A stretch of DNA of 64,000 nucleotides from Anaeromyxobacter paludicola (lineage in GTDB: Bacteria > Myxococcota > Myxococcia > Myxococcales > Anaeromyxobacteraceae), in NCBI RefSeq assembly GCF_023169965.1, contig NZ_AP025592.1, forward strand, positions 1,612,001-1,676,000, read 5' to 3'. Below the pieces are notes generated by a model. That model searched no databases and had not been told where the DNA came from. It was given only the letters and a program-made list of their open reading frames with translations. Positions within the stretch are counted from its first letter, which is position 1. Every line of letters starts with the position of its first letter. Of this stretch, positions 2,847-5,370 are shown piece after piece. The position numbers and the translations under genes are program-made.

Positions 2847-3521
2847 TCACCGCGCCCGGCCGGCGCTCACCGCCCCCGGGGCGGGCTCGCGCGGCGCGGT
2901 GCCGAACACGTAGTCCCAGAACGGCGTCGTCACCCCGTACCGCTCGCCGTTGTCGAGGAAGTGGTGCTGCAGGTGCCAGCGCTTCAGCTTGCGGCCGAGG
3001 GCGGTGCGGGCGCGGCCGTGGTGCGCCCAGTAGTGGGTGAGGTCGTACCAGAGGTACCCCGCCACGAGCCCCCCGAAGAGCGGCGCGAAGGCGTGCGCGC
3101 CCACGGCGGCGTGGAGCGGCCAGCCGATGAGCACCGCGAGCACGGCCGCGACCAGCGGCGGCATCACCAGCCGGTCGGGGTCGTGCGGGTAGTCGTGGTG
3201 CACGCCGTGGATGAGGAAGTGCACGTCGCGCCCGAGCGCGCCTCCCCCGAAGCCGGCGTGGAAGACGAAGCGGTGGAGCGCGTACTCGAGGAGCGTCCAC
3301 GCCGCGAGCCCGAGGAGCGCCAGCGAGGCGGCCGCGCCGCTGGAGACGAGCGGATCGCGCGCCGCGCGCCAGAGCAGCCAGAGCGTGAACGGCGCCCAGA
3401 CCACCGCCACCTGCCACGGCCGCACCCGCGACAGGTGGCGCTCGATGAAGTCCACCCGGAACATCCGGGGGCTGCCGGTGCGGGGTCGTTCGACGGGCTC
3501 GCGCGGCGCCAGCCAGAGCAT
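2847..3521 (-). CDS. Fatty acid/ceramide 2-hydroxylase-like membrane di-iron enzyme
   Basis: 224 residues of the fatty acid hydroxylase (sterol desaturase) superfamily. Histidine clusters for the di-iron site are HRFVFH (83-88), HGVHH (105-109), HYWAHH (163-168) and HLQHH (183-187). Hydrophobic stretches lie around 37-52, 62-80, 123-140 and 148-160. The order and spacing (LEYALHRFVFH, then HGVHHDYPHDPDRLVMPP, then WYDLTHYWAHH, then HHF...WDYVFGT) closely follow eukaryotic FA2H/Scs7, which hydroxylate the ceramide N-acyl chain at C2. The start ATG has AGGAA about 7 bases upstream, overlapping the stop of the desaturase gene 9 bp away, so the two form one operon. Substrate is inferred from homology and neighbour. 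Confidence 0.8.
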   Translation of the reverse strand: MLWLAPREPVERPRTGSPRMFRVDFIERHLSRVRPWQVAVVWAPFTLWLLWRAARDPLVSSGAAASLALLGLAAWTLLEYALHRFVFHAGFGGGALGRDVHFLIHGVHHDYPHDPDRLVMPPLVAAVLAVLIGWPLHAAVGAHAFAPLFGGLVAGYLWYDLTHYWAHHGRARTALGRKLKRWHLQHHFLDNGERYGVTTPFWDYVFGTAPREPAPGAVSAGRAR

Positions 3522-3530
3522 GTCCGGTTC

Positions 3531-4526
3531 CTAACCGGGCACCGGCGCCGCCGCCGCTTCGGAATCGGCCGCCGCGGGGGCGGGCGCGCGGGTGATGCGG
3601 CTCCCGAGCGACAGGCTCGGGTCGAAGATGAAGCGGAGCAGCAGGCGGGTCCAGGAGCGGTGCGCGTGGAGCGGCTCGTAGAGCTCCGGGGCGAGCCGCT
3701 TCAGCGCCGGGAGCCGGAACCAGGGCACCTTCATGAGGTCGTGGTGCTCGTTGTGATAGCCCACGTTGAAGGCGAGGAGGTTCATCGGCCCGTAGTAGGA
3801 GAAGGTCTCCTGGCCGCCCGGGAAGGTGAGGTAGTGCTCCTGGATCCAGCGCGCGCCCACCGGGTGCAGCCCCACCGCGAAGACGCTGCTCGCGAAGAGG
3901 TAGGCGAGCGCCCACGGCCCGAGCGCCAGGAGGACCGCCGCCGCGAAGGCCACCTGGACGGCGAGGTTGACCGCGTACCACCGGTCGAAGAAGGGCACGC
4001 GGCGCAGCCGCGGGATGCGCGACGTCTGGGCCACGAAGAAGAGGAGGAGCCAGAGCGCCTTGCGCCACGCGCAGCTCCCCACCAGCCGCACCTCGAGCGG
4101 GCTCGGGAGGTCGGCGTCGAGGTCCTCGGCGCCCTGGTAGGCGTGGTGGAGCAGGTGGTACTTGCGGAAGGAGATGGCGGCCGGGAAGAGGATGGGGAGG
4201 TTCGCGAGGATGGCGAGCCAGCGGTTCGGGCCCGGGCGCCGGAAGACGAGGTCGTGGGTGCAGTCGTGGATGAGCACCCAGAGCCCGTGGTCGGCCACCG
4301 CGCCGAGCGCCCAGGCCGCGCCGAGGAGGAGCCACCAGGGGGCGCCGCGCAGGGCGACGGCGAGCGCCAGCTGGGCGGCGACCAGGCCGAGCACGAACAG
4401 CGCCGAGACCGGCGCGTGGCCGCAGAGCGCGCGCGCCTCCGGGTGCGCCGCCAGCAGCCGGCGCGTCCGCTCGTGGTGCGGCTCGCGATACGTCACGCGG
4501 TGGAAGCAGCTCGATCCGTCGTCCAT
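3531..4526 (-). CDS. Sphingolipid (dihydroceramide) delta-4 desaturase-like protein
   Basis: 331 residues of the membrane fatty acid desaturase family. The three His boxes are HDCTH (87-91), HLLHH (124-128) and HNEHH (258-262). Features typical of the DES/DEGS dihydroceramide desaturases rather than acyl-lipid desaturases include the short N-terminal segment with YREPHHERTRRLLAAHPE, the HPVGARWIQEHY stretch (221-232) and the ending LPALKRLAPELYEPLHAH with a C-terminal FIFDPSLSLGSRITR. These enzymes put the 4,5-trans double bond into the long-chain base of ceramide. It is the first gene of a two-gene operon with the 2-hydroxylase-like gene. No ceramide-synthesis genes are in the window. Confidence 0.8.
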   Translation of the reverse strand: MDDGSSCFHRVTYREPHHERTRRLLAAHPEARALCGHAPVSALFVLGLVAAQLALAVALRGAPWWLLLGAAWALGAVADHGLWVLIHDCTHDLVFRRPGPNRWLAILANLPILFPAAISFRKYHLLHHAYQGAEDLDADLPSPLEVRLVGSCAWRKALWLLLFFVAQTSRIPRLRRVPFFDRWYAVNLAVQVAFAAAVLLALGPWALAYLFASSVFAVGLHPVGARWIQEHYLTFPGGQETFSYYGPMNLLAFNVGYHNEHHDLMKVPWFRLPALKRLAPELYEPLHAHRSWTRLLLRFIFDPSLSLGSRITRAPAPAAADSEAAAAPVPG

Positions 4527-4665
4527 CCCGGCTCCTCGGCAGGTCCTCGCGGCTCAATATGCGTGCCGGCGCCGCCCGGGGGGTGGCTCGCTCGGGGCGG
4601 GCGGGAACAAGGCCGGAGGGCGGAAGGATTGCGACCGGACGGGGTGGGGGTAAGCTCAAGGGCGC

Positions 4666-5370
4666 GTGAAACCACTCCTCGCCCGCGCCGCGGCGGCCGC
4701 CGCGACGCTCGTGCTCCTCGCCGCCGCCGATCCCGCCCCCACGCCCACGGCCACCCCGGCGGTCCCGCCCCCTCCCCCGTTCCTGAACGAGGAGAAGCTC
4801 CCGCTCACCGACTTCCGCGTGGTGGAGCGGGACTCCGGCCCGGTCATGTACTACCAGGTGACCGGACCGCCGGACGATCGCCACATCCACGCGGAGTACA
4901 AGCCGCCGCTCGAGACGGTGACGCTCGGGCTCCAGCTCCCCGACCGGCTCCACCAGAAGGCGACGAAGCTGCGCTGGCGCTGGCGGGCCCTCGCCGTCCC
5001 CGAGAAGGGGAACGAGTGCGACGCCGGGCGCGGCGACTCGGCCGCCTGCGTCTACGTGGTCTGGAAGTCGGGCCTCAAGTACTACGTCATCAAGTACGTC
5101 TGGGCCGGGACCGGCCGGCGCGGCCGCTCCTGCCAGCAGAAGCGGAACCTCTTCGCCGCCCAGGACGCGGTGGTGCGCGAGTCCGGACGCCCCCTCGGCG
5201 AGTGGATCACCGAGGAGGTGGACCTCAAGGCCGCCTTCCGGTCCCACTTCCTCGGCGGCGACCCCAAGGGAGACGTCCCCGACCTCGTCGGCATCGGCCT
5301 CCTCACCGACGGCGACCAGACCCACAGCCCGAGCGTCGCCGACTACGCCGGCTTCTCCATCCTCTACTGA
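4666..5370 (+). CDS. Exported DUF3047 family protein
   Basis: 234 residues, GTG start. An N-terminal signal sequence (KPLLARAAAAAATLVLLAAADP) is followed by a Pro/Thr-rich linker. The rest matches DUF3047-type proteins: a W-R-W-R-A-L strand, a GDSAACVYVVW segment, an IKYVWAG segment and a closing GDQTHSPSVADYAGFSILY. Function of the family is unknown; the beta-rich character suggests a secreted or periplasmic binding-type fold. It stands alone, 18 bp before glnE on the same strand. Confidence 0.75.
   Translation: MKPLLARAAAAAATLVLLAAADPAPTPTATPAVPPPPPFLNEEKLPLTDFRVVERDSGPVMYYQVTGPPDDRHIHAEYKPPLETVTLGLQLPDRLHQKATKLRWRWRALAVPEKGNECDAGRGDSAACVYVVWKSGLKYYVIKYVWAGTGRRGRSCQQKRNLFAAQDAVVRESGRPLGEWITEEVDLKAAFRSHFLGGDPKGDVPDLVGIGLLTDGDQTHSPSVADYAGFSILY

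Follow-up and report, generated by a model that had tools for sequence, protein, structure and literature searches.

Desaturation of dihydroceramide to ceramide is usually regarded as a eukaryotic step. The title of a 2009 study by Ring, Schwar and Bode ties myxobacterial 2-hydroxy fatty acids to sphingolipid formation. The window considered here, a 64,000-nucleotide stretch of the chromosome of the soil-type myxobacterium Anaeromyxobacter paludicola, holds a desaturase gene beside a hydroxylase gene, and an earlier note read the pair as resembling the eukaryotic ceramide-modifying enzymes of the DEGS and FA2H types. The locus raises the question of whether a bacterium completes a ceramide with enzymes of this kind. 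Judging from sequence comparisons, we give a probability of about 0.65 to the reading that the two genes form an operon whose products finish a bacterial ceramide by modifying both of its halves.

According to the literature, the hydroxylase of the pair has precedents in myxobacteria: FA2H homologues there have been linked to sphingolipids since 2009 (Ring, Schwar and Bode 2009), and several species possess functional FA2H-like hydroxylases (PMC10002949, a review). The present locus shares with those reports an FA2H-like enzyme in a myxobacterium; it differs in the DES-type desaturase encoded in the same operon, of which the review passages make no mention. Sphingolipids are counted among the eukaryote-like lipids of myxobacteria in part of a further article (PMC9131029). 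A literature search of titles and abstract openings, in which few subscription journals were represented, returned no recognised description of a bacterial sphingolipid desaturase or of a desaturase–hydroxylase operon.

A two-gene operon

As the earlier note had it, two adjacent open reading frames lie on the reverse strand. The desaturase gene, the first of the operon, spans 3531–4526(−) and encodes 331 amino acids; the hydroxylase gene, the second, spans 2847–3521(−) and encodes 224. The junction between them at 3519–3533(−), which reads TTAGGAACCGGACATG, comprises the desaturase stop codon TAG, an AGGA overlapping that stop, a 9-base gap and the hydroxylase ATG, bearing out both the spacing and the overlap of the second ribosome site with the first stop that had been described. 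A ribosome-site-like motif, GAGGAG, stands ahead of the desaturase ATG in the 5′ region of the operon (4527–4665(−)), which is common to the operon and to a divergent gene at 4666(+). This divergent gene and a convergent gene for an NtrC-like regulator, named from its own sequence, flank the pair. The third-position GC content is 0.98 in the desaturase and in the hydroxylase gene, with neighbouring genes alike, and neither of the two has a second copy in the genome, which is a single contig of 4.59 Mb. We conclude that the desaturase and hydroxylase genes form a two-gene operon that is probably translationally coupled.

The desaturase belongs to the DES family

The DES/DEGS hallmarks claimed for the first protein were recovered by profile searches, in which the Lipid_DES family PF08557, a domain confined to DES proteins, scores 30.0 bits (cut-off 23) and PF00487 scores 103.9 bits. 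Like the eukaryotic DES/DEGS enzymes, the window desaturase combines a Lipid_DES domain over the cut-off, located at the N-terminus (residues 8–39), with three histidine boxes, HDCTH (87–91), HLLHH (124–128) and HNEHH (258–262), the third in a YHNEHHD context. PF08557 is present in 20 of 20 Myxococcota DES sequences in an aligned set, and in all 38 of a wider DES set, the window protein being counted in both; the histidines are invariant across these 20- and 38-sequence alignments. As a control within the Myxococcota, PF08557 matched none of four other PF00487 desaturases versus four of four further DES-like ones. An AlphaFold2 model of the desaturase has a pLDDT of 87 and a pTM of 0.87, and a fold search with it returned AlkB, two chains of a Chlamydomonas motor complex and general desaturases, with no DES-specific match.

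For comparison with eukaryotes we used what we take to be the sequence of human DEGS1, which is the sole eukaryotic sequence in the DES comparison. In phmmer searches this presumed DEGS1 matches the window desaturase at 215 bits and the other desaturases at 22–27 bits, only three of the four matching at all. In a tree of 63 chosen rows, all 59 DES-like rows, the human one included, are split from the four other desaturases by a branch with support 100/98; the outgroups are very distant, on very long branches, and the deepest branching order among the DES sequences is not resolved. (Alignment A1 consists of the window protein and 19 of the 29 other fetched DES loci, alignment A2 of the window protein and 20 of the 29 other fetched FA2H loci; locus L113 was left out of the DES alignment and tree on account of an in-frame stop.) By its sequence relationships, the window protein is a member of the DES (sphingolipid delta-4-desaturase) sequence family. 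An ordinary acyl-lipid desaturase was considered as an identity for it and rejected on the DEGS1 scores, the tree and the PF08557 control.

Within the DES group of the 63-row tree, the window desaturase falls in a 14-row branch, support 91/98, of Myxococcota and Bdellovibrionota sequences and not with the presumed human DEGS1, which groups with a second myxobacterial paralogue (represented by G094 and G090; 99/94) and then with G013 and G108 (100/99). The window protein thus sits in a bacterial branch apart from the human sequence, and it does not appear to be an orthologue of eukaryote-type DEGS; its membership of the wider DES family is unaffected.

This second paralogue is found in Myxococcaceae at L210:693-1634 (G094) and L211:748-1689 (G090), and also in G060, G065, G092, G095, G097, G098 and G101. 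The copies compared, those of G094 and G090, score 329 bits with the presumed DEGS1, against 215 for the window desaturase, and its history may possibly include a transfer between eukaryotes and myxobacteria.

Family membership leaves room for a different reaction. Animal and fungal DES-family enzymes include bifunctional ones, and the window enzyme might hydroxylate C4 of the long-chain base, giving a phytoceramide type, instead of or besides introducing the 4,5 double bond. That reading draws on the same family evidence (PF08557, PF00487) as the desaturation that we favour and, because the window desaturase lies apart from the branch with the presumed human DEGS1, the choice between desaturation and C4-hydroxylation is not transferable from that enzyme. 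Nevertheless, the sequence offers no positive evidence for C4-hydroxylation, no residue examined separates the two outcomes, and we regard it as rather unlikely.

The hydroxylase carries an FA2H/Scs7-type domain

The second protein had been credited with the hallmarks of FA2H/Scs7, and these too are present. PF04116 scores 63 bits; the chains of yeast Scs7 (4zr1/4zr0) match at E 2e-29, and no other PDB chain falls below an E of 1 in the phmmer search. A profile search of the PDB gives Scs7 at E 8.7e-48 and, besides, one unrelated chain at 0.91. Ten histidines of the hydroxylase each have their counterpart in the alignment with Scs7, namely H244/249/268/271/272/326/330/345/348/349, which we take to be metal ligands, and the RLVMPP motif follows the HGxHH box. 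By these features, the protein is a carrier of an FA2H/Scs7-type domain. Scs7 scores 108.7 bits against it versus 41–62 bits against eight other Myxococcota PF04116 proteins, and in the FA2H tree of 36 rows these eight lie on long branches. On the same scores and tree, a sterol-desaturase-like PF04116 protein was rejected as a candidate. The trees that the earlier note had proposed as a check therefore place the desaturase apart from ordinary acyl-lipid desaturases and the hydroxylase apart from sterol-desaturase-like PF04116 proteins. Folded alone, the hydroxylase gave a poor model (pLDDT 55).

The differences from FA2H/Scs7 are also clear. The window protein begins at the hydroxylase domain and has no cytochrome b5 domain in its 224 amino acids, compared with 392 residues for the 4zr0 chain; since the fused N-terminal cytochrome b5 is absent, it would not count as a eukaryotic FA2H proper. 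A PF00173 search of the whole genome returned no match, that is, no cytochrome b5 domain protein, and therefore the electron supply must differ from that of the eukaryotic enzymes. DES and FA2H families are both widespread in bacteria. The proposed resemblance to eukaryotic ceramide enzymes holds at the level of the families but, given their wide bacterial distribution and the separation of the desaturase from the presumed DEGS1, not beyond it.

Probable ceramide pathway genes elsewhere on the chromosome

The earlier note was right that no sphingoid-synthesis genes lie in the window; they sit at about 3.98 Mb on the same chromosome, some 2.3 Mb from the desaturase–hydroxylase operon. This SPT-like locus contains genes for an SDR reductase, a GNAT-like acyltransferase, an SPT-like protein and an HpnN-like exporter, so that the genome check suggested alongside that remark turned up a single operon encoding SPT-like, N-acyltransferase-like and reductase-like proteins. 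A search of the genome for the AOS family found one SPT-like protein. Its best PDB match is an SPT (E 4e-107, 362 bits), presumably that of Sphingobacterium, with the best KBL/AONS chain at 314 bits, and it scores 466 bits with NF047600, below the NCBIfam cut-off of 640. The SPT gene adjoins the acyltransferase gene in 20 of the 20 loci that were fetched with the acyltransferase.

Several other features of these loci were observed. The SPT-like protein (L023:9393-10934) has 513 amino acids; its AOS domain ends near residue 392 and is followed by about 120 further residues, and the long reading frames of other Myxococcota SPTs suggest a similar C-terminal extension. The HpnN/MMPL-like exporter gene directly upstream (L023:11032-14148) is a candidate for a sphingolipid transporter. 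Two CerS-like acyltransferase genes lie near each other on one contig in G102, G103, G104, G105, G107, G108, G110, G111, G140, G141, G143, G144 and G145.

The predicted gene set is similar to that of the Caulobacter pathway (Spt, bCerS and CerR), the SPT-like, acyltransferase-like and reductase-like genes here sharing an operon. Parts of the Caulobacter literature describe that ceramide pathway together with an acyl hydroxylase, CC_0202 (PMC11324152), and a periplasmic CerR (PMC11087976). In Caulobacter the amide-linked chain is hydroxylated by a separately encoded enzyme, as would be the case here, but CC_0202 is reported (PMC11324152) to be of the DesA desaturase/hydroxylase type, whereas the hydroxylase here is FA2H-type. 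The Caulobacter gene set also includes acpR and aasR, and its CerS is CC_1154, the putative counterpart of which we name only acyltransferase-like.

Gene neighbourhoods in relatives

The comparison sample consisted of 195 Myxococcota genomes, three of which have DES and FA2H genes side by side: the window genome, a member of the same genus (G042), with the same 9-base gap at the junction, and a member of another family (G155), in which the proteins are 58% and 55% identical (DES and FA2H), the gap is 2 bases and the gene order is the same. An FA2H homologue adjoins an operon for SPT, acyltransferase and reductase in six of the 195 (G043–G046, G048 and G189); in G189 the hydroxylase gene immediately precedes SPT in the direction in which both are read. 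The proposed ceramide link is strengthened by these six relatives in which hydroxylase genes adjoin the SPT operon. In the genomes of genus g4 that have DES (G044, G045 and G046), it is on a separate contig from the FA2H–SPT locus. In the nine genomes of genus g2, of the same family as the window genome, the DES and FA2H matches are weak at best (lowest E 3e-7 and 9e-5, respectively) and SPT nowhere reaches 410 bits; one of them, G033, has a weak acyltransferase match.

It might be argued that the desaturase and hydroxylase genes are neighbours by chance, or are merely co-regulated as O2-dependent membrane enzymes with unrelated substrates. The scarcity of the adjacency (3/195) would fit, as would genus g4, where the hydroxylase gene adjoins SPT and the desaturase gene, where found, is on another contig. 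However, the 9-bp gap with its overlapping ribosome site, and the recurrence of the same order in a different family with a 2-bp gap and 58%/55% identity, make this reading very improbable.

Among the genome contigs scanned, at least 590 DES relatives were detected, of which 80 were kept, from Bacteroidota, Bdellovibrionota, Acidobacteriota, Gemmatimonadota and other phyla; the window genome and those close to it may be left out of this collection. Within flanks of up to 10 kb, the 80 kept loci have no FA2H, SPT or CerS/acyltransferase homologue; a reductase-like match occurs in two of them, and their other conserved neighbours are mostly common to Mucilaginibacter-like genomes. The adjacency in only three of 195 genomes and the bare flanks of the 80 kept loci together mean that the neighbourhood of DES rarely points to sphingolipids. 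Scans of viral contigs for DES and FA2H relatives, aimed at an algal-virus DES, returned none and one fragment, respectively.

Co-occurrence with sphingoid-base enzymes

A sphingoid-base enzyme was defined as a stand-alone SPT (NF047600 at ≥410 bits) or a PKS–AOS fusion, and an FA2H genome by a score of ≥92 bits; these cut-offs were chosen after the score gaps were known, and the fused-AOS group was added after exceptions had appeared. DES scores in the 195 genomes are at least 300 bits in 30, peak at about 190–261 bits in seven and include one fragment, beyond which there is a gap to about 50 bits. A sphingoid-base enzyme is present in 35 of 38 DES genomes versus 94 of 157 others, and in 84 of 93 FA2H genomes versus 45 of 102 others. 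Kinship was handled by genus counts alone, which give 17/19 versus 32/71 for DES (p 5.5e-4) and 38/43 versus 11/47 for FA2H (p 2.6e-10). Counting stand-alone SPT only, the figures are 29 of 38 DES genomes versus 60 of 157 others; it is present in 29 of the 30 strong DES genomes and absent from nine of all 38, most of these nine encoding a PKS to which an SPT-like domain is fused. Nine of the 93 FA2H genomes are devoid of any sphingoid-base enzyme, and three of them (G139, G142 and G152), drafts that are 85–87% complete, are also the three DES exceptions.

The fusion is a single protein with KS, AT, KR and DH domains and a C-terminal SPT-like AOS domain, for example L218:4710-11672 in G067; others are at L219, L220 (without the AT), L221, L222 and L224. 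It occurs in 41 of the 195 genomes, in two cut by contig ends, and would stand in for SPT in these; among its bearers only G156 also has a stand-alone SPT. In G067 the open reading frames suggest that it comes after acyl-ligase-like and ACP-like genes, with a CerS-like gene on the same contig, and the fusion of G023 and G027 has a reductase-like match next to it. The protein appears to be related, in fused form, to the PKS/AOS sphingolipid system that two genes encode in P. fluorescens (PMC12134224).

Beyond the Myxococcota sample, 50 DES-bearing genomes from the 80 kept loci were surveyed; L104–L108 among them are Myxococcota near relatives, and L122 is also from Myxococcota. NF047600 reaches at least 400 bits in 37 of the 50, and in one more the match is split over two contigs; 12 have no recognisable SPT. 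By our reading, the Bacteroidota background is 147 of 198 genomes with an SPT match at E<=1e-130, and therefore the test outside the phylum is uninformative. With 38/50 no higher than 147/198, co-occurrence outside the Myxococcota was dropped as support.

These exceptions bear on a further alternative, in which the operon acts on other acyl lipids, the first enzyme being an acyl-lipid desaturase and the second adding a 2-hydroxyl group to free fatty acids, phospholipids or amino-acid lipids. DES without recognisable SPT in 12 of the 50 genomes and FA2H without a sphingoid-base enzyme in nine of 93 speak for it, and the only established FA2H assay described in the passages of PMC10002949 uses free fatty acids. 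On the other side, PF08557 is found in all DES-like proteins scanned and in none of the four other desaturases, three of the nine FA2H exceptions coincide with the DES exceptions in incomplete drafts, and hydroxylase genes adjoin the SPT operon in relatives. We consider this alternative improbable.

Proposed pathway and implications

In the pathway that we propose for finishing the ceramide, SPT would join serine to an acyl donor, an N-acyltransferase would attach the second chain and a reductase would reduce the 3-keto group, with the order of steps left free. The DES-type membrane di-metal enzyme, with O2, would then insert the 4,5 double bond in the long-chain base of the (dihydro)ceramide, and the FA2H-type enzyme, also with O2, would hydroxylate C2 of the N-acyl chain; the electron donor would be something other than cytochrome b5. 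The product that we infer would be a 4,5-unsaturated, 2-hydroxylated ceramide; with a likely route to ceramide encoded elsewhere in its genome, the organism probably makes such modified ceramides. Neither of the outcomes that the earlier note named as refuting its reading was observed. What survives of the original interpretation is the assignment to the DES and FA2H families, the likely ceramide genes and the FA2H–SPT neighbours; the eukaryote-type reading and the product named were overstated, and the cytochrome b5 electron supply of eukaryotes is missing.

More tentatively, and on balance doubtfully, there may be an old and broad bacterial family of sphingolipid desaturases, with eukaryotic DEGS as a branch within it; numerous bacteria would then make sphingosine-type 2-hydroxylated ceramides by a dedicated desaturase–hydroxylase module, with the base coming from SPT or a PKS–SPT fusion and with no cytochrome b5.

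If the operon does finish a ceramide, ceramide-forming desaturation would have a bacterial counterpart, encoded beside the matching hydroxylase, and the two genes would offer a target suited to a clean knock-out and lipid assay. They would also help in asking in which direction DES genes passed between eukaryotes and bacteria, and would serve as a marker with which the structure of bacterial ceramides might be predicted from genomes.
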